From Phlyctochytrium arcticum (lineage: Eukaryota; Chytridiomycota; Chytridiomycetes; Chytridiales; Chytridiaceae): DNA of 64,000 nt. Below, in pieces: positions 12,375 through 36,405 of this stretch. Below the pieces are notes generated by a model. The model worked only from the letters and a program-made list of their open reading frames with translations. It was not told the origin of the DNA and made no database searches. A program made the translations under genes and the position numbers. Position 1 is the first letter of the stretch. Every line of letters starts with the position of its first letter. Location of the stretch: contig JAHLKI010000004.1 of assembly GCA_025602905.1 (NCBI GenBank), positions 1,394,905 to 1,458,904 on the forward strand, written 5' to 3'.

Positions 12375-12454
12375 CCCACTGTTGGGTCTGTTATAGTGCA
12401 GACCCTATAGTGGTACCACTATAGGGTCTGCACTATAACAGACCCAATAGTGGG
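12375..12454. repeat. 80-bp near-perfect palindrome at the outer tip of the left TIR
   Basis: The central 50 bp (12390-12439, centre 12414/12415) read identically on both strands. Extending the arms to 12375 and 12454 adds only one mismatch. An equivalent, slightly decayed palindrome is centred at 36379/36380 at the right TIR. It marks a head-to-head joint between element A and a mirrored end on its left. Confidence 0.85.
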
Positions 12455-13461
12455 AAAGTACTATCCAGGAACCAATAGTGGAAAGGGCACTATTTCAGAC
12501 CCAATAGTGGGAAAGAGGAAGAACCAATAGTGCCAAATTCAAGAACCAATAGTGGGCAGCGCGAGCGGGCCTGCAAGCAAACCTATCCATAGGATCCCCG
12601 AACGGCATTCAAGCTTGCAGTACTGTTACATGGTCATACTGCTCGAAAAACTATCGATATGATTCATATGAAATGGCCTGACACTACTATCGATTCTATT
12701 GTCTCGTATTAGCTTCTCCCATGCATCGTGAATACACCTATAAGCTTACTCGTAATACTCTAATAAAGTGGCGACCGTTTTATTCTGAATCTGGCATGTT
12801 ACCTCTTGTCCCAATTTCCCACATTTACCTCTTTTATGAATTTTTGAACTTGGTGGTCAAACCACCACCAACATTTTTGACTCGTACTGCTACACATGAC
12901 ACATGGGACTTAGCTATACATGGTACTATGATCATCTCTCTACCTCTCTCTCCAATCCAATCCAATCGAGTGGGGAAACTCTGCCCCAAACTCTGCCCTA
13001 AGGTTTTGCTTCCCTTAACGAATTTTTCAAATTGGGGCAGAGTTGATGTCCAACTTTGCCCCAACTTTGCCCCAAGCCTTTTCGTGTGGGGAAGCAAAAT
13101 GCAGTTTTAGAAACGAGTGGGGAACAGTGTTTCTTTTATTTGGGGCAGAGTTGATGTTAATTTTGAATTAATCTATTGTTTTTTTTAATAGGTGGTCAGC
13201 TCGCCACCACCTCAGAATACAGGAATTCCTTATAGCACAAAATTACAGCTCAACTCTGCCCCAAATCTCTTCAATCTCTTTCCCCACTCGTTTCCAAAAC
13301 TCCATTTTCTTTCCCCACACGAAATTGTAGGGGCAAACTTGGGGCAGAGTTGCTTCTCATATTTCACAATTCTTTCACCCCACACGAAATATTGCGGTCT
13401 ACTTGAAACTTCCAACTCAGCCCCTAATCTCTATGACTTACATATCACCCTCACCTGCTTC
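12389..13461 (+). repeat. Left terminal inverted repeat of viral element A
   Basis: About 1.07 kb, matching 35335-36405 in inverted orientation with only scattered differences (pairs of positions sum to 48794-48796). Its outer part holds CACTATTGG-type units. Its inner part holds many copies of GGGGCAGAGTT/AACTCTGCCCC. Open frames inside it exist equally in both TIRs and look non-coding. Confidence 0.9.
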
Positions 13462-13959
13462 ATCTTCATTCTACCATCCATTTTTATCTCTAAAATATGC
13501 ATTGTATGCCTCCATGCCAATTTTGTTTCTGCTCATAATCTCATCAATATCTTTCAAAGAATTGAGCTTGGGAATATATACTCTCATACCGAGATTCTGT
13601 AGATAGGCTCCTCTTGTCAGTAATACAAAAAATGGTGAGAATGACTTGACAAATACTTGGCAATGCCTAATATTATACTTTTCATTTTCAACTCGTGAAG
13701 TTTCTACATCAGTTAAGCGCTTTCTCGACCAGTTTGGTTTAGAGGTTTTTTCAACTGTGTACAGTGTTCACCCCTCTCCCAAACTCTGTGTATCAACTCG
13801 AGTCTTTCCTTCTTTTCCATCCTTGCATTTTAGGTATTTTTCATGAATAATATTGTAGTCTTCTTCACTGAATTTTTTTTGATCGTTGGCATTATATACT
13901 AATTGTATATGACAAATAACTTGACGTGAGCACAGACGCGCACCAAGGAAACTTTTCAT
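13460..13959 (-). pseudogene. Decayed mirror copy of the 11197 gene
   Basis: The minus-strand N-terminal part (13959-13768) reads KKFSEEDYNIIHEKYLK, close to FSEEDFQSILERYLK in the 11197 gene. The remaining homology runs on in shifted frames down to the inner TIR edge (matches to HCQVFVKSFSPF, TRGAYLQNLGM and PKLNSLKDID). The copy carries frameshifts and is not expressible as one protein. It is transcribed towards the TIR. Confidence 0.7.
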
Positions 13960-13991
13960 TTGATACCTTCAAGATATAGTAATATTCAAAA

Positions 13992-14330
13992 ATGTGTCCA
14001 TCAGCAAAACTAATTCATCTATCGTCACCCAATGGAGAGACAGCTAAAGTGCTTCGTTTGGCTATCAATGATGAAGAGGAATTGACAAAAGTAGCTCTTG
14101 GGTTAAGAGGTAAAGACTTATATGTGTACGTGCCTCGTAGTAATTGTAATAGGAAGCTCTTTGAGAAGATAATCAGCATCTCGTCTTTGCTTCATCCCAA
14201 AAAGGATGAGAAATTAAGAAGAGATTTTTTGAGTAACGGGTGGCTGAATATCAGTGATTCAAAACTGGCAATAGGATGCGAAAGGAACACTTGCATTGAA
14301 GTCTTTGAGCTGATATGTAACGAGTTTTAA
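13992..14330 (+). CDS. Hypothetical viral protein (112 aa)
   Basis: ATG start, 112 codons, mixed alpha/beta composition, one Cys-containing C-terminal stretch and no signal peptide. It ends four bases into the end of the convergent fibre-gene remnant (stop at 14327), the tight packing usual in viral DNA. Family not recognised. Confidence 0.5.
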   Translation: MCPSAKLIHLSSPNGETAKVLRLAINDEEELTKVALGLRGKDLYVYVPRSNCNRKLFEKIISISSLLHPKKDEKLRRDFLSNGWLNISDSKLAIGCERNTCIEVFELICNEF

Positions 14331-15819
14331 TATTCAATCATCTGAAGTTCAACTCTGCAGTTACCGTCAAACGAAACATTACTACCAGACCATGTAAGAG
14401 TAAACGTATGACTTCCTGGTACAAGCCCGCTTGATATGGCATGGAGTGGAAAGCGAATGACCTGACCTTGATATCTCCAAAACAAGTAGATTGTTTTTAT
14501 CGGCTGTCCATCCACACGAAGAATAGCGTCCACACCAAATTGATCACTTCCGCACCACAGAGATACGCTTCCTGTGTACATCTGTATACTTCTAGTAGTT
14601 GTGAAAGTCTTTGAAAATTGGGCAACAACTCCAGTTGCCGGGTACGATACATTATCCCATATTGTTGTTGCGACGGGTCGAGTCAGTAATCCCTGCCCGT
14701 CCAGATATACTGTAATCCTCCAGAGGGTGCTTTGATATACATTGTATTTTGATAAGGGGGTGACGTGGCGGTATTCCCGATCCCGATAAATCCAGAGACA
14801 GTAGAATCATTGTTTTCAAATTGAATGGTTGAATAACCACCAGAATGACGGTTCTTTACTTTCAACACATTGCTTACAAAATTAGACTGGATTATGCTAG
14901 TTGTGATTGAATTGAATCCAAAGTCAATTTGTGATTCGGTGGATACTTTCCCGGCCCCACCAATTGGACAAAGACGTAAGGATAAATCGCTCGAATACCA
15001 CCCAATGAATCTATGATTCGTGATGGTATCAAAAAAGTGGAGATCTCCATTTGAGTGGGATGGCGTACATCATATATACAAATTTCCCAAGTTAATTTGT
15101 GAGAATCCAGTATTCGGGATATTCAAATACGAGCCATTTATTGTAATGTCGCCAGTTGTTGTTAGACTAGGTAACGTGGCTGTTATAGATGAAAGTGCTG
15201 TCAAATTTGGATGACTAGACTGTTTGTTACCAAGAGATGTAATTAATGAATTGCCAGCAACGAATATGTTGGTACCCACATAGAGTGATTTTACAACATG
15301 AACATTTCCATCTGGTCTTAATTGAAGAATATGAGATGATTGATTAAAATTGTAGAAGCCTATTGAACCGTTAGGCAAACCGCCCGTACCAGCTTGCCCT
15401 GCATGATATATGCCCCATTGGCAACTAGATGATGCATTATTCATGGAAATTATAGCATTTCCTGCTGTTGCTGTTGAAGGAGCATTGACGGTAATGGCAT
15501 TTGGTTGATTACCGGCTCCAAGATTCAATGTTAAAACTTTGGATGAAATTGTATCGATTACTTGCATCGCATTGGCGACTATCGTTTTAGCTACACTTAA
15601 GCCTCCGGCAATTCGAAATGAACCATTATTTGTTGTAGTAGTATCGGTCAATGAGAAAAATAACGCTGTACCGTCTCCGAGCAATTGTGATATGACTGTT
15701 GTGCCTCCATACCATTTAAATCCATTTGAATTATTATTAGCTGGTATCGAAAACCACATATTAGCACTTTCCATGCCGATTGCATAATCCACTGCATTAG
15801 AACTGACAGCAGGATACAT
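14327..15819 (-). pseudogene. Tail-fibre/receptor-binding protein, C-terminal part
   Basis: Last section of a long fibre gene that begins at 20037. ORF 15819-15070 has Gly/Asn/Ser/Thr-rich beta repeats of the kind seen in phage and giant-virus tail and surface proteins (MESANMWFSIP, FKWYGGTTVISQLLGDG, NGSIGFYNFNQSSHILQLRPDG). After at least one frameshift, fragments continue at 14868-14652. The end piece (14581-14327) is a compact beta-rich domain, possibly the receptor-binding tip. Frame changes separate the pieces, so the gene cannot make one protein. Confidence 0.6.
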
Positions 15820-15962
15820 TACAACTTTTGTACCGGGACTTGTGGTAAATGAAGGGTTAGATACGATAGTTGCAAAATTGAGATACTTGGAAAGATTGAC
15901 ACCACCAGCAACTCTTAAGGCATTTTCAGAAGTTGAATACAGATCAAGTATTCCGTCAGATG

Positions 15963-17768
15963 CTATATTGAGTATTTGCGTTTCTGTTGTACAGTAGAAT
16001 TCGCAGGTCTCGTAAAGAAAGCGAAAGCACCAGTGCCTCTCCCATCAAGGCGAAAACCTAAACCAGGATATATCGTATTCTTGTTTGAAGCGTGGAAATT
16101 GGTTTCTAAATTTATACTAGGTGTTGTTCCGCCCAATTCTGTTGTAATACCTGCCGGTGCAGTATAGTTTCCGAGATTTATAGATGATCCTAAATCTATT
16201 TTCGTTCCTAGTAAAAGTCCTGTGACATCAGTGGATGCCAAATCGACAGCATTCTTCAATGCTAATGCGGCAAACGCTGGTTTGTTGAGAATATTTGCAT
16301 ATTCTATTTGACCACTAGATGCCGATGAAGAAAGGCCTAACGTTGTTTTAATAGATGCGGCATTACCCGAGGTAATGAGTGTTTGAAGCGTACTTGTATT
16401 CACATTTGCGACAGGAAGAACACCTGTAATATCTGATGTAGATAGGTCAACAGAGTTTTTCAAAGCCAATGCTCCGAGTAATGGTTTGTTTATTATATTA
16501 GAATAATCTAATGTTCTTACAATTTTTAGATTCTTGAATTCCTCCTTCTGAGCATACGACCCCGACCACGAGCTAATTCCCAGGCACGTGTTTTGTGTAT
16601 TAACAGCAGTAATACTTTCAAGTCCCTCATTAGAGATTTTCAGAACATCATTAACATATAAGTACATGGAACCATTGTTGTAAACAATTTTAATAGAATA
16701 CCATGTATTTGCCGTCGGAAACATACTGAGATAAGATGGTCCCGCTACATTAGCATTAGGCGTTCTCAAAGTCGTCACTTGATTGAATCGGGCATATTGG
16801 AAACCGTATGAAGGAATGGCCCCATTCATAAACGTATTCGAGGTTGTTGGTTGAAAGAAGGAAATAAACGATCCATCTCCTACACCTGCCCATCTGTACT
16901 GGATAGTTAATACAAATGAATTCCCTGGATTCATTTTGTAAAGATACGTACCATTTATCTGTGATCCAATAATAGTAGTAACAATTCCAGTTGTTGAATC
17001 ATATGTGGCATTTCCGGCAAGTATTGCCGCGCTTGATAAATTTCCTCTAGTCTCTCGTTCATCTATAAGAACAATGTTATTCAAGTTTGAAAGAATTGGA
17101 GCATTCAGATCACCCGTGATTGCTAGTGAAGATATAGTTGGTGTAGATGTGGAGAGACTATTGAGGTTTGAATGAACATCTTGTTTCAATGCTAGATTCG
17201 GGGTATTTCCAATAAGTGAATAATCCAATTTTGCGGAACTTGTAATCAAAGGGTGTTTTGTTGCTAAACCTGAAGTTAGAGAACTCGTTAATGCATATGG
17301 TGAAAGATCCGGAGTTCCTGAAACGTTTGTATAAGCGATCATGTTACTTGATGAAATGACATCTTGCTTACTGTTCTGCAATCCTGTAATCAATCCTCTG
17401 ACAGCCGTATCATTGTACGCCTCAGTCTTCAACGCATATACGGCCAAATTTGGTACATTACTGAGTAATGAGTAGTCAAGTTTGTTTCCAGATGTAATGG
17501 TATTCTGTTTTGATGTCAGTCCAGTCGCGAATGCAGCGTTTGATACATATCCAGTGAGTGTGCTTGTTAAAGACGTATTCGAGACGTAATTTGCTGCAAT
17601 ATTCGAAATTGTTGCATATATGGACAAATTCGGAACTCCCTCGAGTAATGAATACGACAATTTGTTGTCAGTTGCAATTTTTGGTTGAAAATTAGCATAT
17701 AGTGTTGATTCTAAACCAGAAAGTAGGAGGTTAGTATCTTCAAGTTCATTTCCCAATGGACTCACCAA
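15963..17768 (-). pseudogene. Fibre protein central section: shaft repeats plus lectin-like domain
   Basis: A 601-residue open stretch. Residues about 25-200 are repeats built on NKLDYSLLSNVPNLAVYA, phage-tail-fibre style. Residues about 230-420 look like a concanavalin A/laminin-G-type jelly roll (NGTYLYKMNPG, FVLTIQYRWAG, WYSIKIVYNNGSMYLYVND), a fold used for carbohydrate binding. The shaft repeats then resume (LDYSNIINKPLLGALALKNSVDLS). The frame upstream of the first Met continues the preceding ORF (17777-18244) after a single shift. Attachment function is inferred from the architecture. Confidence 0.65.
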
Positions 17769-17776
17769 AGAACCAA

Positions 17777-19015
17777 CTAGAGTAATACTGTAGTTGAAGG
17801 CTGAATAACCTCAGCGTTGTACTGTCTTAGCATCTCGAGGTTGATTCCAGTTTGTGGATATTCTGATTCGATGCCTAACCACCCGCAGCTAGGAGAGGTG
17901 TCCCATAATATTCTCGTAACGTCACATCCATTCGAATCTGGTAGCGTAGCAATGACAACGTTAGAACCGTCTTGTAACTCGTAGTTTCCATTGGAATCTA
18001 GTATGGGAGCACCATTAGTATCTTCCTTTCTTTTTCTTTCACGGCCGAATATCGAAATCCAGCCTCCAGTCAATCCTGTCAAAGCTCCTTCTAACATCCC
18101 ACCGCCCAAAGCACCAACTGCGGAAGAGGCCGAGCCGATAGCGCCCCCGACCCCGAATACTGACCCAGCTAAAGGACCAAGAACACCGCTCAAACCACCT
18201 GTAATGGAGATCACATCTCCACCAGTGCCTCCCGACTTGAGCACTTGTCCTTCATTACCTTCGGTGAATTCTTCTTGTGGTGAATCTTCAGTTCTCTCTT
18301 GTTTGAAGGTATCTATAGAACTAATTGACTATCCAGAACCAGTCGGAGTCACCAAGATTCCCGTTCCACCCACCAAAGTCATAGTATTGTTGATGGATCT
18401 ACCAGCGACATTGATAAATGTGCCCCCGATATATGGTTGCTCTTCAGGTGCTTCGTATTCATATGTTGATGAGATGGTGTTGCCTGTGATCTGAATATTA
18501 TTTCCCGCTTGGTAATTCCCCCTTATGTCATTTCCTACCCGAACAATACCGTTAGACGCTGTGAGCTTTTCAGTAATGTGATTCTTACTTGAGTTCATCT
18601 CCAATGCCCCGTCAACGGTAAGGTCCAACGAAACTTCATGGCTGGAATTCTCGTGGAGCCCCTGTCCAAAGGTGCGCAAGTCTGTAAGAATGCTGCCGTC
18701 AAACTCGATATTCCCCTGCGTCTGCAAATCAAGGTATACCTCGTTCCCGTTACGAATTCCTAGCGAATTATTAGACTGGAATATCAATCCGCTCGTCAAT
18801 TTCCCCTCTGCATTCAGTCTGATGCTTGAGTTGTTCACCAAATTCGCGAGATTCACTCCTAGCATATTTGTCACATCAGTCAGCAATGAGTCATCGTGAC
18901 ACAGTGACACGATTTTTCGGCCGAACGACTCGCCGGAGATTTCAATGGAATTTCCAGCTTGATACAATTGTTCGACGTAGGCTGCTGTGGTCAAGGTACT
19001 TTTATTTGATATCAC
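17777..19015 (-). pseudogene. Fibre protein, second section with Gly-rich hydrophobic segment
   Basis: Two open stretches of the same broken gene. 19015-18329 carries beta-repeats (GNSIEISGESFG, GNEVYLDLQTQGNIEFDG) and stops at 18329. The other frame then reads without a break into 18244-17777, which has a Gly/Ala-rich hydrophobic run (about residues 8-60, LSGVLGPLAGSVFGVGGAIG) followed by a basic patch RERKRK. That run could be a membrane-inserting or fibre-trimer segment. It joins the 19042 section upstream and the 15963 section downstream through frame changes. Confidence 0.55.
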
Positions 19016-19041
19016 AAAGTCTTGCTTGCCAATAACATAGT

Positions 19042-20037
19042 CTACTTGTACTGTAGCTGTCTGAGCGTGTTGTTGAATACGAGATTCGAGGATTGATTCA
19101 TTCCGACTCCCGTTCCACCGCCGTAGTACACCAGTCCCAATCCTTCACTCTTTACACCAAGACGATTGCCCTCCTGTGTGAGATTATTGGTGTCGACCAA
19201 CAACTTGACGAGAGAAGCATCGAATGCCTCGAGTGGGTCTTTATAGACTGAAATGGCTTGACTCCCTTTCAAGTATTCCGTTGCCTCTTTGGCATTCAAC
19301 TTTCCATCTTTGATTTCCAAACGGGATCCAATCTTCAAGGAGACTTCCTCGTCTACTTCATCAAGAGGTTCATTGAATACAAGTTTATCAGGTATTTTGG
19401 CAGACAATTCATTATTGGAGATTCTCATTGTGTCGGAATCCAGATTCAACGTCATTCTATGAGAATTGAATGCATCAAATTTGAAACCCGGACCGATCTT
19501 CAACTCCAAGCCTTTCGCAAACAATGTCCCATCCTCAAAATACCCCTCGTTATCTTGGAAATGGGACGAATATTCCAGTTCTATGTTACCATCATCATTG
19601 ATGAAAAGAGGGGAATTGACATTCTGGGCACGATTCGAAAGTTTTCCGCTGTTAGTAACAAAGAGTGATGACTGCTCGTCAACCAACAATCCAACCTCGC
19701 CGTTTTCGTTCCGATGGACAGGATCTGAATACAAAGTTTCTAATACCGCCAGTTTACCATCTACCAACTCAAGTGTGTTCTCGTCGTAATTCAGTGAAAC
19801 CAAAGCGGAACCGTCTTCGACGTTTGTGGTTAAAGGTACGTCGGTCTCTATATTGTTGACCAGTAACTGACCATTCTTGTTAGAGATTGATTGAAATGCT
19901 CCCTTGTCGAAATTTTCTATATAGACGTTATTGCCAAGACCTTTGATGCTATTTGTGACTAAAGGAGAAACGAGGTTCGTCCTCTCAAGCGTTCGTAGAC
20001 CACTACTGTTGCGCCCGTTAAGGTCCTTCATGTTCAA
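19042..20037 (-). CDS. Adenovirus-fibre-like shaft protein, N-terminal section of the long fibre gene
   Basis: A 331-codon open frame starting MNMKDLNGRNSSGLRTLERT. It has serial short repeats with the adenovirus-fibre-shaft flavour (LELVDGKLAV, SPLFINDDGNIELEY, LEIKDGKLNAK, LVFNEPLDEVDEEVSLKIG): hydrophobic-x-hydrophobic strands with Gly/Asp-Gly turns about every 15 residues. A paralogue sharing these landmarks is split by the Ty3 element (48773-49465 and 55938-56191). The stop at 19042 is followed by coding-like sequence in another frame, so this is probably the N-terminal third of one approximately 5.7-kb gene (20037 to 14327). Spike/attachment role inferred from repeats and neighbours. 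Confidence 0.65.
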   Translation of the reverse strand: MNMKDLNGRNSSGLRTLERTNLVSPLVTNSIKGLGNNVYIENFDKGAFQSISNKNGQLLVNNIETDVPLTTNVEDGSALVSLNYDENTLELVDGKLAVLETLYSDPVHRNENGEVGLLVDEQSSLFVTNSGKLSNRAQNVNSPLFINDDGNIELEYSSHFQDNEGYFEDGTLFAKGLELKIGPGFKFDAFNSHRMTLNLDSDTMRISNNELSAKIPDKLVFNEPLDEVDEEVSLKIGSRLEIKDGKLNAKEATEYLKGSQAISVYKDPLEAFDASLVKLLVDTNNLTQEGNRLGVKSEGLGLVYYGGGTGVGMNQSSNLVFNNTLRQLQYK

Positions 20038-20090
20038 ATATAGCTTTTATCTTGGAAATTTATATCAAACAACCAACATCGTATTCAATC

Positions 20091-20417
20091 TTAAATTGGC
20101 GCTCTTTCAAGATGATCAAGGAATTTGTCGGTACCCTTGTGGTATTCTGTCACTCGTTTTAAACCAAGATCTGCCAACTCTTGTCCTTTTTGAGAGTAAT
20201 CGTTGACTTTGGAGTTTTTGAATAGTTCATTGCTCTGTATTCCTTTGTTCACATGGGTAAGAAGTTTGTGACCTTTAGTTGCAATATTTACAGCATTATT
20301 CAGAAAGTTTCGAGTTTGGGTGATTGGTCTACTTGAAAGAAACGTATTCAGTCCTCCTTTTGCTCTATTTAGAAAGCCAACCATGTATTCTTTTCCGTTC
20401 TTAATATAAGAATACAT
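20091..20417 (-). CDS. Small basic viral protein (108 aa), possible minor virion protein
   Basis: ATG start and complete ORF. It is basic and helical with amphipathic character (LGLKRVTEYHKGTDKFLDHLE). It sits between the fibre gene and the divergent gene at 20430, whose ATG is only 12 bp away. Position in a structural cluster suggests a virion component; family not recognised. Confidence 0.5.
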   Translation of the reverse strand: MYSYIKNGKEYMVGFLNRAKGGLNTFLSSRPITQTRNFLNNAVNIATKGHKLLTHVNKGIQSNELFKNSKVNDYSQKGQELADLGLKRVTEYHKGTDKFLDHLERAPI

Positions 20418-20429
20418 TTTATTACATAG

Positions 20430-22526: not shown

Positions 22527-22869
22527 GCTTGAGCAAATTTCTGAGAATGTGCCATCGGCAGAGTAAGAAGTTTTTCGATAGGCAGATCATGTATCAAAGA
22601 GGTCCCTCTGAGGAATTAATCATTGGCCCATAGGCCCCGCATTGTGGTGTTGCTCGCCTGGGGCTACTTGCTCGATGGTTTGTCCCGTTGAATGGTTGGA
22701 GCACTTTCTCCCACCATCTGTCTTGAAGAGTCCCACCACTGTCGGCACTTGATTTCGGCCTTGTCGAATCGACGCGGAGTATGTCGGAATGACAATCCTC
22801 CCCCTCCGTTCCCTCCCGTATGAAAGTGGCGCGTCGGCACAGGAATTTGGGACCGACGTCCCCCCACAA
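22433..22869 (-). pseudogene. Minus-strand exon in tandem unit 1 (premature stop)
   Basis: The exon ends HWSQ followed by the 5' splice-like GTACTAACG on the minus strand. It includes LPIEKLLTLPMAHSQKFAQA. In unit 3 the same exon runs open from MRGLWANDSFLRG; in units 1 and 2 the serine codon has become TAA, breaking it. Divergent from the plus-strand gene at 23085. Function unknown. Confidence 0.35.
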
Positions 22870-23084
22870 CGTCCTTGAACGTCAAGTCTTTGACAGCTGC
22901 AACAACCAACAGTGACAGAAGTCGTTACAAAGTACCCAAACTACCTCCCTCCAACTTCCATTCCTCTATTGGGTACGGTTGGCGCCGGCAATCCTCGAAA
23001 TCCGAGTCGCGTTGCTGCTGCTCGCGTGGTCGCGTCGCAAGATTCACAACACACAGATTCAACCAAGCTCGCCACCTCCCCAAC

Positions 23085-25397: not shown

Positions 25398-28363
25398 GTA
25401 TGAGCAACGTGGCAAATTAACTATCTTCAATGATAAGCGTTAGTACCTGACTCCAGTGTTTCATAAATGCCTCCTCCCTCGCCGAGTCAAGAGCTTGAGC
25501 AAATTTCTGAGAATGTGCCATCGGCAGAGTAAGAAGTTTTTCGATAGGCAGATCATGTATCAAAGAGGTCCCTCTGAGGAATTAATCATTGGCCCATAGG
25601 CCCCGCATTGTGGTGTTGCTCGCCTGGGGCTACTTGCTCGATGGTTTGTCCCGTTGAATGGTTGGAGCACTTTCTCCCACCATCTGTCTTGAAGAGTCCC
25701 ACCACTGTCGGCACTTGATTTCGGCCTTGTCGAATCGACGCGGAGTATGTCGGAATGACAATCCTCCCCCTCCGTTCCCTCCCGTATGAAAGTGGCGCGT
25801 CGGCACAGGAATTTGGGACCGATGTCCCCCCACAACGTCCTTGAACGTCAAGTCTTTGACAGCTGCAACAACCAACAGTGACAGAAGTCGTTACAAAGTA
25901 CCCAAACTACCTCCCTCCAACTTCCATTCCTCTATTGGGTACGGTTGGCGCCGGCAATCCTCGAAATCCGAGTCGCGTTGCTGCTGCTCGCGTGGTCGCG
26001 TCGCAAGATTCACAACACACAGATTCAACCAAGCTCGCCACCTCCCCAACATGGTGAGTGTCTGCAAATAGTCGTTTTGTTGGGGTCTTCCTGAAGCATG
26101 CTGGGGCTGTCTGGGGGTGTCTACCAGCCATCATTGTTCTTTTGGTGATGGGGGTCATGAAACGGCGACCAATATGGTATCTACGGTGCTGAAGGACACG
26201 CTGGGGCTGTCTGGGGGTGCCTACCAGCCATCACTGTTTTATCCTGGTGATGGGGGTCATGAAACGGCAACCGAGATGGTGTCTACGGTGCTAAAGGACA
26301 CGCTGGGGCTGTCTTTGGGGTGCCTACCAGCCATCATTGTTCCCTTGGTGATGGGGGTCATGAAAGGGCAACCAAGATGGTATCTACGGTGTTTTTGGAG
26401 GCTGCTGCCGGGTTGCCTTTGTTGCATCTACCAGCCATCACTGCCTTTTTGGTGATGGGGGTCATGAAACGATGGGCGAAGGTGACGTCTAGGAGGACAT
26501 CGCAACTATGGGACCAGCATCACTTAGCTTTATGGCTAATATTTTTTTATAGCATTCTTCAGACTTGACTATTCCCGATGTATCTTTTGCACTGGAAGAA
26601 AGGCTTCCACCGGCAGAGGACGGCCGCTGGCGCAAAGTGGCCAAGTTCGTTGGAAAAAACCTCGACTCCTTTGTGAACCTGAAGTCGTGCTCTTGTCCCG
26701 CCGATCATCGGGTGACCATCGACTTAAACAGGCCAGCCGAGGCTATAATCACCGCATTCTCTAAGCAAGCCACCACTGTCGAGATTGCTAATACCGGAAT
26801 TCCTGTTCTCGTTGCAGCCAGGTGCGTAGTGCCAATCTTGAAATACGCACTTTCTTCCGAAACCGACTCGTTTTCCTTTGCAGACTGTTCATCTCCGCAT
26901 GGGCGCGCGTGAATGACAACGTCCCAACATGCCTAAGCCTCACGGGGCGGGCATCGAATCTCCCTGGCTCTATCAGACACAGGTGCAGTACAATTAAAAC
27001 TAGCAGTTGCATCACAAGGTTGTACTTACGGTTGGCCAAAACAGAGGTTGTCCTCCACTTCCCCTCCCGTGACCGTTGCGCGGACTTCATCAAAACAACC
27101 ACCCGCTCGCCAAGTTTTGGCGCGTACTGTTTTTTTTTTGGGACATCACCGTGGATGTCAGCCATCCCTCCCAAAACGCCTTTAGCCGTCCAGCTGGCAG
27201 TTTGTAGTGGCCCGGCGGAACGATTTTCCCAACTTTTGCAGGTAAGTTTGAATTTTGATTCGTCCAGTGGTTCTGCATAGCTTAATTAGACGCTTCCTTT
27301 TAGCACTACCCCGACGTGGACCAGTCAAAGGTTCTTCTCGGAATCTCGACGTTCCAGCTTTTGGGAAAAGAATTGTTGGAGCGGATTATCCAAGACATGG
27401 AAGGTGCAGTGTCTTCGATTTGTATTGCTCACACTTGTGCAATGTACTGAACTTGTTACGCAGATTGATCGTTAATACTTTCGTCACATGCAATTCATTT
27501 AATTCTTTACTACCTATTATCGATTCATCCATCATTCACTATTATTTTTGATTCATCCATCATTTAGTAGCTATCATTGGTTACCTAGTGACATTGTCTT
27601 ATCAATTCTCAATCTTGAACTCTCTTAATGCTCAGATTTGTCGCTCACGACTACATGCAGGCGTGTGATGGACTGTCGGAAAAGATTGGATCAAGTTGTT
27701 CACAGCGTAGCCAATGACACAGTCCATCTCAGATTTCATCAACTGCCCTTGCCTAATTTCAAAAATCTTGGACCAAATGATACTTGACTCCCTCTCATTG
27801 TTCTAATTTCTTTCGAGGTACATTGGTATCGTAAAAAGTCAACCAGGAAACTGTTACTTTATTGAATCATCAGAAAAAAGTATTTCGGTAGCGGTAACAA
27901 TACCATCCTCCCAAAGTTGTTCCACAACGAAAAGAGTCACGGAAACACAATCATTTGTCTCTCGCCCTATCGTATCCAGTCAAACTGAACGACCACCATA
28001 TTGCATATAAAAACATAATCACACGTAAACTTGCACTGGTATATATTCACCAACTTTACCAGCAAGATCTTCCTTATACTGCAGTTCGAGCCGCTCACAG
28101 TTTCTGAGATGCTCAACTTACCACGCCATGAAATCGCAATCAATCAAAAATCTCGGTCTTGTATTCCAGATGAACTTAAGGGGACTCTTCTAGCTTCATT
28201 TATCTAACCATTCTCCATACCTGTGAGATGAGGTTTCTTACCCCACTGCATCTATACGAATGACGGATCTGTCAAAGCGGAAAAGTCTTCTTGGCTAGAA
28301 ATCCATGATGGCAAAGGTTAAATCGAAAGAAAAAGAGCTTGTTGGGCCGTGCTGCAATTTAAG
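25398..28363. repeat. Tandem unit 2
   Basis: 2966 bp, nearly identical to unit 1 including the minisatellite and all splice sites. It is preceded by the full unit end (CTGCAATTTAAG), so the unit 1/unit 2 joint is a true tandem joint. About 27475-28363 shows no convincing gene. The minus-strand exon (25398-25835) is broken as in unit 1. Confidence 0.9.
26051..27468 (+). CDS. Spliced hypothetical host-type gene, tandem copy 2
   Basis: Same exon-intron structure as 23085-24502, shifted by 2966 bp, with all GT-AG sites kept. Only a few codons differ in the exons (for example an Arg to Glu change after LRLAKT), so both copies remain potentially expressible. The copies are too alike for old duplicates. 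Confidence 0.5.
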
Positions 28364-29509
28364 GTATGAGCAACGTGGCAAATTAACTATCTTCAATGAT
28401 AAGCGTTAGTACCTGACTCCAGTGTTTCATAAATGCCTCCTCCCTCGCCGAGTCGAGAGCTTGAGCAAATTTCTGAGAATGTGCCATCGGCAGAGTAACA
28501 AGTTTTTCGATAGGCAGATCATATGTCAAAGGGGTCCCTCTGAGGAATGAATCATTGGCCCATAGGCCCCGCATTGTGGTGTTGCTCGCCTGGGGCTACT
28601 TGCTCGATGGTTCGGGCTGGGCCCCAGAAGCGCATGCGTCTCGTTGAATGGTTGGATCTTGAAAAGTCCCACGACTCTCACCTGCGTACGGAGTATATCG
28701 GAATGACAGTCCTCCCTCTCCGTTCCCGCCCGTATGTAAGTGGCGCGTCGGCACGGTACCCACGGCCCCCAACGTCCTTGAACGTCAAGTCTTTGACAGC
28801 TGCAACAACCAACAGTGACAGAAGTCGTTACAAAGTACCCAAACTACCTCCCTCCAACTTCCATTCCTCTATTGGGTACGGTTGGCGCCCGCAACCCTCA
28901 AAATCCGAGTCGCGTTGCTGCTGCTCGCGTGGTCGCGTCGCAAGATTCACAACACACAGATTCAACCAAGCTCGCCACCTCCCCAACATGGTGAGTGTCT
29001 GCAAGTAGTCGTTTTGTTGGGGTCTTCCTGAAGCATGCTGGGGCTGTCTGGGGGTGTCTACCAGCCATCATTGTTCTTTTGGTGATGGGGGTCATGAAAC
29101 GGCGACCAATATGGTATCTACGGTGCTGAAGGATACGCTGGGGCTGTCTGGGGGTGCCTACCAGCCATCACTGTTTTTCCTGGTGATGGGGGTCATGAAA
29201 CGGCGACCGAGATGGTGTCTACGGTGCTAAAGGACACGCTGGGGCTGTCTTTGGGGTGCCTACCAGCCATCATTGTTCCCTTGGTGATGGGGGTCATGAA
29301 AGGGCAACCAAGATGGTATCTACGGTGTTTTTGGAGGCTGCTGCCGGGTTGCCTTTGTTGCGTCTACCAGCCATCACTGCCTTTTTGGTGATGGGGGTCA
29401 TGAAACGATGGGCGAAAGTGACGTCTAGGAGGACATTGCAACTATGGGACCAGCATCACTTAGCTTTATGGCTAATTTTTTTTTATAGCATTCTTCAGAC
29501 TTGACTATT
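28364..29509. repeat. Tandem unit 3, truncated and fused to viral DNA
   Basis: Begins like units 1 and 2. It has lost or changed about 60 bp near 28600-28780 and is visibly more divergent there. It stops a few codons into exon 2, at the CCGATG/CTCGATG microhomology, where viral copy B begins. Confidence 0.85.
28413..28574 (-). other. Open minus-strand exon in tandem unit 3
   Basis: Reads MRGLWANDSFLRG through MAHSQKFAQALDSAREEAF to HWSQ, then a GT splice-like site. This is the undamaged form of the exon broken by TAA in units 1 and 2. No downstream exon was identified, and the gene it belongs to is not recognised. Confidence 0.35.
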
Positions 29510-29971
29510 CTCGATGCACTGTTTTCGAATGATGTCAAATTTCAGATATATTTTGATCAGTTGAAAGCGTCCAATAATATTCTGCGTGATCAACTCGGAT
29601 CTCAGAATCAGCAAATCGGTTCCATGACTTTGCAGACGTACACCGTATTCCGACATCTTCTAGAGAGTATTGGTATAAATCACGAAACGATTCCAGAACA
29701 TCCAACTCCCGACTTCGTGATACGAACGTTGAAAGCAGTCAAAGATGCCAGTCCGGTTGCTTTGAAAGAGACAGCGAATATGATTAGTCTCTTGCAGAAT
29801 TTGCAGCGTGTAACAGAGGTTGAATCGAAAGGAACGCAAGTTCCACCTCGGAAAACAAATAAGCCATTTCCAATCGATACGAAGAATCTCTACCCCAAAG
29901 TAGAGAATGTTGACAAAGTACCCAGTCTCGCCAAACCCAGATATCCATGGTCCCTTCACTGCCCTATGTGA
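28988..29971 (+). CDS. Chimeric gene: host 5' end and intron fused in frame to viral C-terminal domain
   Basis: The unit-3 ATG (28988-28990) and the 5' splice site of intron 1 (28991) are intact, and the 3' splice site TTTTATAG ends at 29488. The next exon starts with the unit's own codons (HSSDLTI). At 29510 it passes without a frame change into the C-terminal domain of the viral 20430 gene, ending at 29971 (161 codons including ATG). The upstream 28547-29008 region is the unit's putative promoter/5' leader. Unlike copy A, the T run is full length, so this is the only uninterrupted copy of that viral domain here. Whether it is expressed is unknown. Confidence 0.6.
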
Positions 29972-30878
29972 GCAGCTTTGCAAATGAATCTTTGTGCTGG
30001 AGTACCCGGTGAGTACAGCGAATGAGTTCTGTAAATTCCGACATTGTACAGTCGAGACTGCCGGGGAGGAGTTCATTGGCCGACTGAGCAACGCCGTTGA
30101 CTCCTTTGTACAGAAACTGTCGTTCGATGATTTCCATGAGCGCAACCTGATCCGATGCATCAATTGTTTGGAGGGCTGCAATCATCGCTTCAACCGGCCC
30201 AGTCGCAGTGTTCTCCACGGCCGTGCCCGTTTTCCCGTGGTTTTTGAAAATCCCCATTGTAGATAGCTTCGACGGAACACCTGCAACCAGGACACAGTGA
30301 TATGGTAGACTAGAAAAATGTAGCTGGGTGTCAAGAGGTGACCAGACTTGGATGCAGCACATGAGACCTGCCTTCTAAACCGCTGGTTGTCCTGGAAGGT
30401 CGTGACCACTCTAGAGTTGAGGCTGTTGAGACCGAGTCCGAGTGATGAAGATAATGGTCACCAATGACGATACTATCCGCGCTGATGGTAAAGGTGCTGC
30501 TTTTCGTGCTTTCGTTCTGCTTGCGCAGAGCAAAAGCCTCACGAGTAACGCGAAACACTTTCGATTTTTCATCTCTGTACACAAACCGCCGTCTCTGCAA
30601 AGTGGTCTGGGCTTGATGCCTATTGAGACGAGGTGAAGCCACTTTTGAACGAGATCAATTTTGTGTTGAATATAGGGGATGACTTCCTGTGCCGGCAAAT
30701 TATTGGCCACGAATTCGGCCCACTTTTGATCCCAAACTCTTTGGTAGCAGATTGTACTCTCTAAAAGGGGAGGTATGAGCAACGTGGCAAATTAACTATC
30801 TTCGATGATATCATGATAAGCGTTAGTACCTGACTCCAGTGTTTCTTAAATGCCTCCTCCCTCACCGAGTCGTCGAGA
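29510..30878. repeat. 1.37-kb viral/junction segment, copy B
   Basis: Direct duplicate of 21160-22526. Left joint to tandem unit 3, right joint to the penton-like gene. It also carries a fourth copy of the first about 100 bp of the tandem unit (30773-30878). Confidence 0.9.
29964..30772 (-). pseudogene. Unknown viral minus-strand gene, copy B
   Basis: Same content and same frame breaks as 21612-22420, so the damage predates the duplication. Best coding frame 30362-29964. Family not recognised. Confidence 0.4.
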
Positions 30879-31588
30879 ATACCAATAGTTAGAATACTCG
30901 GTTGAGTCATTTTGATCGTATGAAACGATGTTGAATCAACTATACTGTAATTGATTGAACTTGGTGTAATTGCGTTTGGAAGAATGACAAACTTGTCCGA
31001 CGGATTAGCCCTAGTCACTATATCGGAAAAGTCGTCAGGCTGAATACAAGCTAGAATATTCTGATTGCTCTCAATACCTGCAGGGCAGAGAATGGATCCA
31101 TTGGAAGAGAATGTTCGACTCGTCAGGAGAATTGGCTGACTGGCACTGAGATTCACTGGATTCATGAATGTCACATTCTTTGCGGAAACAGTGGAATCTA
31201 TGTTCCCCAGCTGGTAGTATGATGTACTTCCTCCTTGTTTTCCAAGCACTTTGAAGTCCTTTGGGCCACTAGTACTCAGTGAGATTCTCCGACTGACTTG
31301 ATCGTACGTTACGGAATACGGCTGAGTGGCATTCGAGGTGAGCAGCTGGGACAAAGCCGTAGATATTGTAGACACATCATAGACACCATCTGGCAGCGTA
31401 ATGGTGATGGGGGAATCGTTTGCTTCCTGTATGACGAGCTTGTTGTTCAATTCATGCGAGATGCTATCGCAAGATTGTATAAACGAGAATGCCTTGATAC
31501 GAAACGCGTGGATCGTAAGAGGCGAGATTTGAAAACTAGGTGTCAACGAGCTTAGAATTGCAGTATTCAGTACTATCTGACGATACAT
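30761..31588 (-). CDS. Penton/minor capsid-like protein, C-terminus replaced by junction sequence
   Basis: ATG start. Residues about 1-241 are beta-rich. They have the pattern seen in penton proteins of Polinton-like viruses: an N-terminal strand region (HAFRIKAFSFIQSC), then ITLPDGVYDVSTISTALSQL and YSVTYDQVSRRISLSTSG. At 30878 the viral sequence ends after ILTIGIL, and the frame runs on into tandem-unit DNA for 34 codons (including REEAFKKHWSQ) before a stop. The true C-terminus is therefore missing and replaced. The gene abuts the packaging ATPase (divergent, 55 bp apart), as expected for capsid/packaging neighbours. The penton call is by motif pattern, not by search. Confidence 0.55.
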   Translation of the reverse strand: MYRQIVLNTAILSSLTPSFQISPLTIHAFRIKAFSFIQSCDSISHELNNKLVIQEANDSPITITLPDGVYDVSTISTALSQLLTSNATQPYSVTYDQVSRRISLSTSGPKDFKVLGKQGGSTSYYQLGNIDSTVSAKNVTFMNPVNLSASQPILLTSRTFSSNGSILCPAGIESNQNILACIQPDDFSDIVTRANPSDKFVILPNAITPSSINYSIVDSTSFHTIKMTQPSILTIGILDDSVREEAFKKHWSQVLTLIMISSKIVNLPRCSYLPF

Positions 31589-31642
31589 GCTTTGCTTGCC
31601 TTTTATTATACACTAGAATAGATAATAAGAAAAGCTTGCGTA

Positions 31643-32266
31643 ATGAATGTAGAGAAAGTTTCTATTCCGAAGCAATATAAGCAGAAGATTGTCGACAGTA
31701 CACCAGAAGGTTACCCCCGGAAGTTTTTCACACTCTCGTGTATCGGAAGTTCACGCTCTAGTAAGACAACATGTATCATCAACTTGATCAAGAAGGTTGC
31801 TCACACATATCGGAACATAGTAGTGTATTCACCATCCATTGATGACTTAAGCTGGACGGCGCTGAAAAAGTATGACAATGTTTACACCTCGCAAACCATC
31901 TCGAATCATATTCTGAACAATCTCTTTGAGAAGCAAAAAAAGATTTACCAAAAGGACAAGGACAAGAATCACATGTCCATCTGCGTTTCGTTCCATGATA
32001 CACTCCAATGCACCCCCTTGCAGCGAGTCAATGCAACTCATGCCATTCTTTATCGACTGAACGATGCGCAACTGGAGAAGATTGCCCCTGAGCTGAGATG
32101 CCATCTGTCGAACAAAGAGTTTGTAGAGATGGCAAATGAATATACAAAAAACCCTTACACTTTTCTCTATATAGATGTGAAAGCTCTGTGCAACGAGGAC
32201 GTATTCGTCAGAGGAAAACCCGCAACTCTAATAACACAGAACAAAGAAGAAAAAGATGATTCATAA
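31643..32266 (+). CDS. FtsK/A32-type genome-packaging ATPase, probably lacking Walker B
   Basis: 207 residues. The Walker A-like loop GSSRSSKTTCIINLI at about residues 34-48 keeps the Lys-Thr pair, but Ser replaces the usual Gly before Lys. Later motifs match the family pattern (VSFHDTLQCTPLQRVNATHAILYRLND). The hydrophobic-DD Walker B strand normally between them is not visible: the sequence goes from a Lys-rich stretch straight to the HDTLQ region, suggesting an in-frame deletion. The protein would drive DNA into capsids. It lies next to the penton-like gene and just before the integrase. Confidence 0.65.
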   Translation: MNVEKVSIPKQYKQKIVDSTPEGYPRKFFTLSCIGSSRSSKTTCIINLIKKVAHTYRNIVVYSPSIDDLSWTALKKYDNVYTSQTISNHILNNLFEKQKKIYQKDKDKNHMSICVSFHDTLQCTPLQRVNATHAILYRLNDAQLEKIAPELRCHLSNKEFVEMANEYTKNPYTFLYIDVKALCNEDVFVRGKPATLITQNKEEKDDS

Positions 32267-32277
32267 TAAGACAGAAT

Positions 32278-33550
32278 ATGGACAGCGATGAAGATGAAGT
32301 TGCCAGATACTGGAAACCAATTACGAGGCAAGATTATGATCAATTACTCGACATGTATACTAACGGAGGTGCGCTAATGGGCAGGGACAGATTGTATTTT
32401 CTTTACAAGCAGAGATTCCCTACATCGAAACTTAGCCAGAGAACATTGCTGGAAGAGTTTCTGAAGAAACAAACTGTGTATCAACGCTTCTCAAGACCTC
32501 ATACGCAACGGGGAATGGTACGGTCGATTCTATCGAAGGAGGAGGGGCATTTTCTGCTTGACTGCACCTTTATGCGGCCATTCGGAGGCAATATGGCAAT
32601 TGTTGTGGCAGTGGATATTCTGACAAAGAAGGTTTACGCCCGTCCCTTGAAACGAGTCAATAAGGGGTGTTGTGACATTGCTTAAATCTATGATCGACGA
32701 TGGCGTGACAATTAAGACGATTCAGAGCGACAATGGAAGTGAAAACATCGGTAGGGAAACTCAGGACTTTGCCGAGGAACACGGCATCGTTTGGCGTACA
32801 AGTAAGCTGCATTCCCCGTGGTCAAACGGAATAGTAGAGAAGATGAACTCTACCGTCAAACGGGCTTTGTATATGGGCACTCATTACAATAAGAATTGGG
32901 TACAACTCTTGCCGAATGTAATTCAATCTATTAACAGTACGATTTCGTTTGGTGCAGGAAAGAAACCACGAACACCTCAGTATATCAAAGACAATGCAGA
33001 AGAAATAGCAGAAGCTCAAAGAAAGGATAGAAACAAAGGTGTTTCTGGGAAATTGAAAACCTTCAAGATTGGTGACAAGGTGAGACGCTATATCACTTCA
33101 AAGGATACAGGACTTCTCAAACGGGCAAGAACAGGCTATTTTGGCTCAAAAATATACAGAATTACAGACAGAATACCAAGCAAGTTCATTCAATATCAAG
33201 ATGGATATAAATTACTCGACTTGGACACAAATGTTGAACTCAGTGGCGTATTCGCTGCCTATATGTTAAGACTTGTACCTGATGGAACGCAAGATGTAGC
33301 TGCCCCTGCCGCTGCTGCTCAAGCACAAGATGGAAATGATGATGATGATGATGATGAAGAAGACGACAATGAATATCAAGTCGAGCGAATACTAGATTCT
33401 AGAATCAAACGAGTCAATGGGCGTCGAGTGAAACAAGTACTTGTCGAATGGACAGGCTATCCCGTCTCAGAGGCAACTTGGGAAGATCGAGATCAAGTAA
33501 TCATCAATGCCAGAGAAGCAGTTGAAGAATACGAGAGAGACGTTGAATAG
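32278..33550 (+). pseudogene. DD35E retroviral-type integrase with C-terminal chromodomain, frameshifted
   Basis: The first ORF (32278-32685) has an N-terminal region and the first catalytic Asp in LDCTFM (about residue 95). The second (32672-33550) has Asp20 in IQSDNGSE and Glu56 in SNGIVEKMN, exactly 35 residues apart. An SH3-like region follows, then an acidic linker (DDDDDDEEDD) and a chromodomain (EYQVERILDSRI...VLVEWTGYPVSEATWE, roughly residues 232-280). A one-base shift at about 32670 separates the two catalytic Asp. This is a Polinton/Maverick-style rve integrase; the chromodomain would bias integration towards methylated-histone chromatin (known for chromoviruses, inferred here). 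Confidence 0.85.
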
Positions 33551-34125: not shown

Positions 34126-34575
34126 TTAGACAGAATACACGGGAGGATAAACTTCCTTTACAGAATACACGGGACTAGAAACTTCCTTAATGATATGTTT
34201 TAACATTTTCGTTTGCGCAATCGCTCTCACTTCATCGGCTGTAAACAGATCTAGTTCCATAAATCTCTGAAAGAAACTTGTCCCTGCGGACCATCCAATC
34301 CAAAGACTATTGTTGTATAAGCGCGTTATTTGACTTTTCAAGTCTTCTTCATTCAGAGAAAACTTACCATGCGAAATATCACAACGTTGAAGTTCCTTTT
34401 CTAACTCAGCAATGACTTTCTCGATTTGTTGACTCCTTGAAGGACCTGGAATCTCAATTCCAAATTCTTTTTTGATCAATTTGGAGAAATTTGTACAAGC
34501 TTCTGTGTTGCCCTCACTATTGTATTTATCATAAGTCGCCAAAATCTCATTGTAAATTGGTGTGTCAACAATCAT
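34126..34575 (-). CDS. Hypothetical viral protein (149 aa) with C-terminal repeat
   Basis: ATG start. Central helical region (QQIEKVIAELEKELQRC). The C-terminus holds a short internal repeat (SSPVYSVKEVYPPVYSV), from duplicated CAGAATACACGGGA units at 34132-34175. No recognised domain. Confidence 0.5.
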   Translation of the reverse strand: MIVDTPIYNEILATYDKYNSEGNTEACTNFSKLIKKEFGIEIPGPSRSQQIEKVIAELEKELQRCDISHGKFSLNEEDLKSQITRLYNNSLWIGWSAGTSFFQRFMELDLFTADEVRAIAQTKMLKHIIKEVSSPVYSVKEVYPPVYSV

Positions 34576-34748
34576 TCTTGTTAGTTTTACATACTATGCA
34601 GAAAATGTATTTTTTTAATATTTTACATCAAACGCACTTTGCAAAAAACCCAATTGCGTGAGGTGGAATGAAGACAACTACCCCTGGTGCGTTTGTGCTC
34701 ATGTCAAGTTTATAACAGTGTCTCAAGGGCCTGGAATACTGAGTTAGG

Positions 34749-35084
34749 TTACTTAGACCCCTTCGCTCTTTGCACCCATTCCTGTACCATCTGTTTCCAG
34801 TTATGATGCTCAGCATAATCATCTTTATCAAAATACTTGTTCTTCAAGTCAATGCAGTGTACCACCTTCCGACACGCACGGCAACCCGGTAGGTCGAGTT
34901 GAAATTGTTTTGGTGACTCTAATCTTTCCAAGTCAGGAATTTCGCCCCAGTAGCGAAAATCATTTGGCTGATATTCTTCATTACATTCTTTGCAATAATT
35001 TCTTTCACAGGCACCACACCAACCTTCACATTCAACTGCCATTACCTCAGCACATCCGCTGCAAACATAAAGATCCACACCCAT
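34749..35084 (-). CDS. Cys-rich zinc-binding protein (RING/B-box-like)
   Basis: 111 residues. Cys pattern CSGCAEVM...CEGWCGACERNYCKEC in the first 45 residues, then a CRAC pair around residue 73: enough ligands for two zinc sites, cross-brace-like. Viral RING-type proteins often act on host ubiquitin pathways; that role is inference. Last gene before the right TIR. Confidence 0.55.
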   Translation of the reverse strand: MGVDLYVCSGCAEVMAVECEGWCGACERNYCKECNEEYQPNDFRYWGEIPDLERLESPKQFQLDLPGCRACRKVVHCIDLKNKYFDKDDYAEHHNWKQMVQEWVQRAKGSK

Positions 35085-35334
35085 TGTTAATTATTAGAGG
35101 TTGAGAGAAACTTTTTAGTAGTGCATCTAGTTAAAAGAATGTTACAATTGGACACCAGTGTAGTATCGCAGTGTATCAGAAGGAAGATCGAATTCTTTGA
35201 AATGTATCTACAAGATTGTCCAAAGAGGTAACTCGATGGAAAAGAGAATATTCTGTTTCTGTTTGTATTCCAAATGCAAGAGTGGGAACGCTTCAAAGTC
35301 GATGCCCAGTAGAGGTGCTGAGGAGAAACTTCCT

Positions 35335-36405
35335 GAAGCAGGTGAGGGTGATATGTATGTCATAGAGATTAGGGGCAGAGTTGGAAGTTTCAAGTAGACC
35401 CCAATATTTTGTGTGGGGTGAAAGAATTGTGAAATATGAGAAGCAACTCTGCCCCAAGTTTGCCCCTACAATTTCGTGTGGGGAAAGAAAATGGAGTTTT
35501 GGAAACGAGTGGGGAAAGAGATTGAAGAGATTTGGGGCAGAGTTGAGCTGTAATTTTGTGCTATAAGGAATTCCTGTATTCTGAGGTGGTGGCGAGCTGA
35601 CCACCCATTAAAAAAAAATAGATTAATTCAAAATTAACATCAACTCTGTCCCAAATAAAAGAAACACTGTTCCCCACTCATTTCTAAAACTGCATTTTGC
35701 TTCCCCACACGAAAAGGCTTGGGGCAAAGTTGGGGCAAAGTTGGACATCAACTCTGCCCCAATTTGAAAAATTTGTTAAGGGAAGCAAAACCTTGGGGCA
35801 GAGTTTGGGGCAGAGTTTCCCCACTCGATTGGATTGGATTGGAGAGAGAGGTAGAGAGATGATCATAGTACAATGTATAGCTAAGTCCCATGTGTCATGT
35901 GTAGCAGTACGAGTCAAAAATGTTGGTGGTGGTTTGACCACCAAGTTCGAAAATTCATAAAAGAGGTAAATGTGGGAAATTGGGACAAGAGGTAACATGC
36001 CAGATTCAGAATAAAACGGTCGCCACTTTATTAGAGTATTACGAGTAAGCTTATAGGTGTATTCACGATGCATGGGAGAAGCTAATACGAGACAATAGAA
36101 TCGATAGTAGTGTCAGGCCATTTCATATGAATCATATCGATAGTTTTTTGAGCAGTATGACCATGTAACAGTACTGCAAGCTTGAATGCCGTTCGGGGAT
36201 CCTATGGATAGGTTTGCTTGCAGGCCCGCTCGCGCTGCCCACTATTGGTTCTTGAATTTGGCACTATTGGTTCTTCCTCTTTCCCACTATTGGGTCTGAA
36301 ATAGTGCCCTTTCCACTATTGGTTCCTGGATAGTACTTTCCCACTATTGGGTCTGTTGTAGTGTAGAACCTATAGTGGTGCCACTATAGGGTCTGCACTA
36401 TAACA
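35335..36405 (-). repeat. Right terminal inverted repeat of viral element A
   Basis: Inverted match of 12389-13461. The outer end carries CACTATTGG-type units and a decayed palindrome centred at 36379/36380 (three mismatches in the 24-bp arms). Homology stops at 36405, 26 bp before the primase ATG. Confidence 0.9.

Follow-up and report, generated by a model that had tools for sequence, protein, structure and literature searches.

Evidence for a decayed polinton-like provirus in the chytrid fungus Phlyctochytrium arcticum, and the terminal palindrome it has in common with its neighbour

Introduction

What is the repeat-bounded element in this stretch of Phlyctochytrium arcticum DNA, and how did it come to share one of its ends with a neighbour? 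We analysed 64,000 nt (the window: assembly GCA_025602905.1, contig JAHLKI010000004.1, positions 1,394,905-1,458,904, forward strand), in which an earlier note had recognised a Polinton-like or adintovirus-style virus with integrase, packaging, penton and fibre genes. We conclude that this element, A, is very probably a decayed provirus of a polinton-like virus (PLV) of chytrid fungi, one among dozens in the P. arcticum genome. The central part of its genome is gone, and it would be unable to function by itself. The overall explanation that we favour on balance is that A, thus decayed, also forms a palindrome-linked joined pair with its left neighbour, N.

Table 1. Positions of features in the window
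Feature	Position	Strand	Remarks
ORF adjoining N's TIR	11164..11625	+	part matches DNA inside A
Right end (TIR) of N	11648..12440	-	N runs leftwards; inverted match to C4
Element A	12389..36405		both TIRs included
Left TIR of A	12389..13462	+	98.3% inverted match to 35334-36405; 95% at C18:135668-136771
Terminal palindrome	12389..12440	.	52 bp, perfect, TG...CA edges; common to A and N
Fibre gene	14327..20046	-	7 listed frames; adenovirus-fibre-like and laminin-G/ConA-like stretches
Small conserved gene	20090..20445	-	115-117 aa in relatives; coordinates approximate, via collinearity
Head of conserved gene	20430..21590	+	function unassigned; right limit approximate
Non-viral block	21590..30770	.	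limits approximate; duplicate around tandem units
Penton-like (minor capsid) gene, putative	30761..31612	-	C-terminus unlike relatives'
A32-type packaging ATPase	31622..32266	+	looks inactive; altered Walker A, no Walker B stretch
Integrase, D35E (rve) with C-terminal chromodomain	32260..33550	+	split across two frames
Small conserved ORF	34126..34593	-	similar ORF in L052, by inspection
Right TIR of A	35334..36405	-	inverted match to left TIR
Right terminal palindrome	36354..36405	.	imperfect; halves differ at 4 positions
Primase-helicase (DUF5906) gene	36404..38829	+	broken frames, directly outside right TIR
ACACAGAT-type iteron-like repeat	38831..39131	.	3' of primase

Results

The 1.07-kb inverted repeats reported earlier are real, with 16 mismatches over 1,074 aligned columns. 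TIRs of the same type recur at 95% identity at a second locus (C18:135668-151503), so that an assembly artefact is unlikely.

The genes between the repeats are recognisable but damaged. The integrase, read through its broken frame, scored 7e-12 for Chromo and 7.9e-6, below the cut-off, for rve (Pfam); its counterpart in a sister element has an open 430-aa frame with D35E spacing and an rve score above the cut-off (2.5e-11), which confirms the chromodomain integrase. The A32-type ATPase assignment holds for the relatives, three of three scanned passing the Pox_A32 cut-off, while the window's own copy falls short (0.0013) and has lost ~48 residues including what we take to be Walker B, with a change in the presumed Walker A. 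The fibre gene is a single 1,896-aa ORF in the sister (L071:1035-6725). Its fragments in the window matched Av_adeno_fibre above the cut-off (2.6e-5) and Laminin_G_3 below it (9.4e-5), whereas the sister's whole ORF stayed below for both (0.033 and 1.5e-4). A long multi-domain fibre does not mark a new lineage, as had been proposed: sections of PMC12220804 already describe large modular PLV fibres, the longest of 3.9 k residues, that carry Laminin_G_3 or avian-adenovirus-fibre domains and in a few cases both. PDB sequence searches with the fibre and ATPase proteins returned nothing significant, and no Rfam family reached its gathering threshold in the window. A hydrophobin profile (PF01185), tried as an indicator of the host, matched neither here nor in any of 14 controls and is therefore uninformative.

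The penton label could not be confirmed. The protein had no significant match in Pfam, PHROGs or PDB, and its structure model was unusable (mean pLDDT 38.9). It belongs to a conserved family with 71 match places in the genome, and the putative label is based on conservation beside the ATPase and MCP genes; it is the candidate for the single-jelly-roll penton (mCP) by which PLVs are also recognised. The conserved gene that begins at 20430 is broken at ~21.2 kb; its frame spans 343 aa in the sister and is longer in the C10 relative.

No MCP was found in the window, and A is not a complete virus: besides the missing MCP, ATPase and fibre are broken. In the place that the remainder of the 20430 gene, a recombinase-like gene, a primase and the MCP occupy in relatives, A has a non-viral block in which 21159-22526 equals 29510-30878 (99.3%) and flanks tandem units of ~2.97 kb that differ among themselves by several percent. 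The earlier note mentions neither the MCP's absence nor these repeats, and it is likewise silent on the terminal palindrome and on the second element that adjoins A on the left. The primase-helicase outside the right TIR probably belongs to the element in which N and A sit. Beyond it, 39021-39131 matches the left flank of N; we rejected this match as a boundary repeat, since it resembles an iteron-like repeat.

The relatives supply what A lacks. MCP or penton-like genes occur with another marker in 49 of 76 marker clusters in the genome. Among the features by which PLVs are recognised, the relatives have a double-jelly-roll MCP, its fold tested, and an A32/FtsK-type packaging ATPase, and the family has TIRs, an integrase and 5-bp target duplications (TSDs), the last at four of five insertion units examined and not at the window pair. 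In a ranking of the MCP (VIA-align), which is not a phylogeny, virophage and adenovirus capsids fell below giant-virus capsids. The relatives at C4 and C10 hold integrase, ATPase, MCP and primase inside one element, and we therefore dropped the idea that capsid and replication genes are two segments of one virus. The primase matched a PHROGs DNA-primase profile (1.3e-20) and a PDB chain named Primase (8.9e-9). The MCP, penton-like, ATPase and recombinase-like proteins had no significant match in PHROGs, nor the MCP and recombinase-like proteins in a PDB sequence search. The recombinase-like gene of the C10 and C4 relatives was found at 13 places; in all five aligned, R214, K252, R374/375, H399/400 and Y408 are invariant, a motif assigned by eye that we take to be the catalytic set of a tyrosine recombinase, an identity for which HMM and PDB searches gave no significant match.

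An undescribed lineage is plausible and unproven, judging from the proteins' sequences. A profile search with the MCP, limited to scoring the 7,984 candidates with the most words in common, returned 13 proteins, of which all ten that were named came from chytrids and none from Spizellomyces; queries of IMG/VR with MCP, MCP alignments, ATPase, integrase, penton-like protein and primase gave pattern matches or nothing, none confirmed. Against full novelty, PMC7805220 reports, in the part cited, one PLV from the chytrid Spizellomyces punctatus.

The left end of A lies in the sole perfect palindrome with arms of at least 10 in the 64 kb; perfect symmetry around it reaches 12382-12447. N extends from the other side: 11648-12443 matches C4:1370133-1370940 inverted at 96.7% identity, and 11168-11547 matches 13534-13916 inside A, also inverted, at 75.5% DNA identity. 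In the right palindrome the inner half is closer to that of sister A and the outer half to that of N; the halves may have undergone conversion, given that the inner half of A in the left palindrome is N-like.

At C18, A is joined to another element, B, through the palindrome at C18:135668-135719, and the outer flanks of the pair match (GGTGC; chance probability 0.0011). No TSD was found for the N-A pair in the window. A alone has none at either locus, and we rejected its single insertion beside N or B on that ground. A lone palindrome stands at C17 (430583-430634) without an element. C9b lacks the 52-bp palindrome and yet shows TG...CA ends and a TSD, so the palindrome is dispensable for insertion; the left end of B is a shortened, imperfect palindrome. 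Large inverted arms occur in B, C9a, C9b, C24 and C30 (98.5-100% identity over the stretches compared; 100% across 3,900 bp in B, 1.5% difference in C30), so that fold-back processes are also at work.

Discussion

The relatives' particle would consist of the double-jelly-roll MCP, a penton-like protein and a long fibre presumably serving attachment, with DNA packed by the A32-type ATPase and, by homology, copied by the primase-helicase. The retroviral-type integrase would insert this DNA by its TG...CA ends, leaving 5-bp target duplications, and the chromodomain would probably direct insertion to heterochromatin. We propose that each genome end is half a palindrome, that replication links genomes end to end through one common palindrome, and that the outer edge of every palindrome is a possible cutting site for the integrase. 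Single genomes, mixed dimers (B-A at C18) and lone palindromes (C17) would then all be insertable, and N-A would be such a joined pair. We place this terminal step just short of an even chance. The half-and-half reading is based on one base at C18 and a handful in the window, which lowers our confidence in it and in the favoured explanation; the missing TSD at N-A, B's left palindrome and C9b also speak against the step. In parvovirus rolling-hairpin and poxvirus hairpin replication, genomes are joined head to head via one palindromic terminus, an analogy only: in the P. arcticum family nothing points to hairpin ends, a nickase or a resolvase. We know of no extrachromosomal DNA or particle for these PLVs. 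A fungal lineage that replicates as palindrome-linked mixed concatemers, with the palindrome as a two-sided integrase end and singles, mixed dimers and the bare 52 bp all insertable, is a tentative and rather unlikely extension.

The same virus could have acquired its joined pairs once it was already integrated, through homologous recombination between palindromes, a possibility to be taken seriously that we nonetheless think improbable. Extrachromosomal A could have entered the right palindrome of an inserted B or N, or two insertions could have recombined with loss of the intervening DNA; the C17 palindrome would then mark, much as a solo LTR does, where a provirus has been lost. Homology between the palindromes holds in either orientation, joint palindromes are seen, the N-A pair has no TSD, and recombination of A into the end of B would preserve B's TSD and yield the same C18 structure. 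Two separate insertions, however, should have left unmatched outer flanks at C18, where the flanks do match; two different partners (N and B) would be involved, and 52 bp offers little length for homologous recombination.

Adintoviruses are defined by pPolB together with an rve integrase. A strict-sense Polinton/Maverick or adintovirus, with protein-primed polymerase and integrase, would account for the chromodomain integrase, the TIRs and the 5-bp TSD, and pPolB matches do occur at other places in the genome, close to related MCPs. Yet none of the 14 PF03175 places falls at the family's loci (C4:1370-1431k, C9:366-409k, C10:387-405k, C18:109-152k), and the C4 and C10 relatives have a primase-helicase. 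We regard this membership as very unlikely; of the earlier classification, an integrated PLV in fungal DNA is what stands. Long-read data are well known for spurious palindromes and inverted arms, the window reaches the end of a contig and the arms of B are identical, but the second copy on C18, the TSDs and the divergence between TIR arms, C30 arms and tandem units make an artefactual origin of TIRs, palindromes or repeats extremely unlikely.

Virophages (Maveriviricetes) are recognised by a virophage-type MCP and a cysteine protease. The cited parts of the literature on protist PLVs (PMC7805220, PMC10120064, PMC12220804) describe much that the P. arcticum family has: MCP with mCP and ATPase, primase-helicase, rve integrase and/or tyrosine recombinase, TIRs (accepted at 100 bp to 8 kb in PMC12220804), short TSDs and long Av_adeno_fibre/Laminin_G_3 fibres. 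What sets the family apart is its fungal host, in which it has dozens of copies, together with the 52-bp palindrome at its ends and the joins through a shared palindrome; PMC12220804 and PMC10120064 make no mention of palindromes. The Spizellomyces punctatus group, likewise PLVs in a chytrid and compared by description only, has a chitinase gene in 52% of its members (PMC7805220, in part), unlike the P. arcticum family ORFs scanned with Pfam, which had none. Mid-GC EMALEs, endogenous virophages of Cafeteria, share a long primase-helicase, the absence of pPolB, and rve integrase with tyrosine recombinase, and EMALE TSDs are mostly 3-5 bp; they differ in being virophages, and palindromes go unmentioned in the cited parts of PMC8547959. 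Polintons/Mavericks share rve integrase, TIRs and the chromodomain (PMC10799480, in part), and their TSD of 5-6 bp (PMC8547959, in part) is compatible with the 5 bp seen here, but they differ in having pPolB.

Fungal DNA viruses are hardly known; a passage in PMC10640383 states that no dsDNA virus infecting fungi is known to date. The P. arcticum genome holds at least two replication types (primase-helicase and pPolB) with related capsid proteins, so a single host is enough to study how replication modules are exchanged. Genome linkage and insertion would have left their footprint in the terminal palindrome and in the joined pair with a single 5-bp duplication, for which we found no PLV report in the literature searched. 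If mixed concatemers do form, broken viruses without capsid or replication genes would be carried into chromosomes by their fuller relatives, and solo palindromes would testify to earlier insertions.

Element A and its sister copy

The inverted repeats that the earlier note had placed around A, an integrated polinton-like virus (PLV), were confirmed: 12389-13462 and 35334-36405 are 98.3% identical. The assembly also holds another copy with these TIRs (95% identical), the sister at C18:135668-151503, whose pieces align collinearly with the window (96-99%) except in the middle. Reading from the left, A carries small-ORF remnants, fibre (-), a gene for 115-117 aa (-) and the head of an uncharacterised gene (+); a non-viral block of 9 kb follows, and then penton-like (-), ATPase (+), integrase (+) and a small ORF (-). 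A genome search with the first 3,781 bases of the block gave off-locus matches only to 556-bp and 162-bp stretches of C2.

The proposed long fibre gene is a single 1,896-aa ORF in the sister, and is listed as seven frames in the window. Av_adeno_fibre passed its cut-off in a window fragment (2.6e-5) but not in the complete sister ORF (0.033); Laminin_G_3 was below cut-off in both (9.4e-5 and 1.5e-4, respectively). The A32-type ATPase gene is present, with Walker A altered relative to its relatives and ~48 residues missing, which hold the Walker B motif in 5/5 aligned relatives. The integrase occupies two frames in the window and is open in the sister (430 aa), where the D35E spacing and chromodomain (8.3e-12) are found as described; HP1 chromodomains were among the best PDB matches (3.6e-6), the top row being a chain named Rad8 (1.2e-6).

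The window and six sister pieces were searched by tblastn with C10 proteins: the major capsid protein (MCP, 414 aa), primase (818 aa) and a recombinase-like protein (412 aa). Over the whole window, primase was the sole match (36419-38817, beyond A's right TIR), with neither MCP nor recombinase-like protein anywhere; in the sister pieces only MCP residues 1-146 matched, with no primase or recombinase-like protein. A itself is a ruin. The observation in the earlier note was mainly sound, and its interpretation half right.

Palindromes at the joints

At its left end A has a 52-bp palindrome, perfect and edged by TG...CA. With the adjoining TIR ends its symmetry reaches 66 bp (12382-12447), and no other perfect palindrome in the window has arms of at least 10. 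The right palindrome is imperfect, differing at 4 positions. The 20-bp core occurs at 11 genome places with at most 2 mismatches; the reversed control occurs at none.

The left palindrome also terminates N, a different element running leftwards. Because window 11648-12443 matches C4:1370133-1370940 in inverted orientation (96.7% identical), N probably spans C4:1370136 to 1407344; over the first 10 kb of the window it would carry Helitron and MULE-like insertions. The C18 locus has the same palindrome-joined arrangement with a different partner, B (C18:109243-135719); B carries a shortened palindrome at its left end. One base distinguishes the halves of the C18 joint, the left half matching B's inner half and the right half A's. 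Within the window, the right palindrome of A is A-like in its inner half and N-like in its outer one. The inner half at A's left end is N-like too, which makes conversion between halves possible. A truncated palindrome lies at C11:386739, and a lone perfect 52-bp one in host DNA at C17:430583-430634, with GTCGC at each side.

A 5-bp target duplication (TSD) was found in four of five insertion units readable at both ends (chance 5-mer match 0.0011); the N-A pair had none, and neither did A tested alone at either of its 2 loci. As the B-A pair has a duplication and A alone none, it looks as though B-A inserted as a single unit or A joined B's end by recombination. Neither route works without the palindrome as joint. 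At C17, either a bare junction was inserted or the lone palindrome is the scar left by a provirus since lost.

The inverted arms of B and four other loci (C9a, C9b, C24, C30) are long; TIR length therefore differs widely, and fold-back copying or conversion takes place. PMC12220804 accepts PLV TIRs up to 8 kb.

Features of the window and of other loci (arm identities are over the stretch compared)
Feature	Position	Strand	Remarks
MULE-like transposase	22-2090		by eye
Helitron, 1,892 aa	2691-8369		Helitron_like_N 3.6e-18
Non-viral block in A	21.6-30.8 kb		tandem units ~2.97 kb inside duplicated 1.37-kb flank, 99.3%
Second Helitron-like set of frames	40398-43668		by eye
Fibre-like gene, second PLV-like element	48773-49537	-	
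Primase-like ORF, second PLV-like element	59600-60274	-	by eye; no Pfam match
D12 adenine methyltransferase, second PLV-like element	62967-63638	+	4.6e-22
C9a	C9:366464-381117		TSD GAGAG; arms 99.96%
C9b	C9:387383-408646		TSD ACGAA; without 52-bp palindrome; arms 99.95%
B-A pair	C18		TSD GGTGC; arms of B 100%
Lone palindrome	C17		TSD GTCGC
C24			arms 99.88%
C30			arms 98.5%

The family in its fungal host

The window (C4 bases 1394905-1458904) ends with its contig. A second PLV-like element lies at that end (48000-64000), interrupted by an LTR retroelement (LTRs 49461-49961 and 55443-55943, 98.2%). Repeats of 250 bp with ACACAGAT-type iterons lie at 38831-39131 and 11753-12001; such repeats occur in N's TIR and flank primase on both sides in C4 and C10 relatives, and are possible replication origins.

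The host is the chytrid Phlyctochytrium arcticum (Chytridiomycota), and its genome comprises 31.48 Mb in 91 contigs. Marker searches, counting match pieces rather than genes, gave 41 integrase places (some perhaps from other elements), 45 ATPase, 24 primase, 34 MCP, 71 penton-like, 65 fibre and 13 recombinase-like; an earlier genome-wide MCP search had used an N-terminal fragment only. Merged at 12 kb, these form 76 clusters, where one cluster may hold neighbouring elements and inverted arms may split into two; 34 hold at least three marker kinds, and 49 hold MCP or penton-like with another marker. The C10 MCP is a 100% match to NCBI protein DFS34DRAFT_593022 of this species. A second PLV lineage is present on C3, C7, C25 and C54, its MCPs 34-41% identical to that of A's family, with matches to protein-primed DNA polymerase B (PF03175) 8-9 kb away. 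Related capsids here accompany different replication genes in one host.

PLV fibres with Av_adeno_fibre or Laminin_G_3 domains (PMC12220804), a PLV from S. punctatus, also a chytrid (PMC7805220), and elements with both integrase types and without the polymerase (PMC8547959) are already described. The open-licence literature, a weak test for being so restricted, yielded no published report of PLVs in P. arcticum or of palindromic PLV ends, and the stem 'palindrom' is absent from PMC12220804, PMC8547959, PMC10120064 and PMC10675990. The interest lies in A's family, in the fungus that hosts it and in the joints formed by palindromes.
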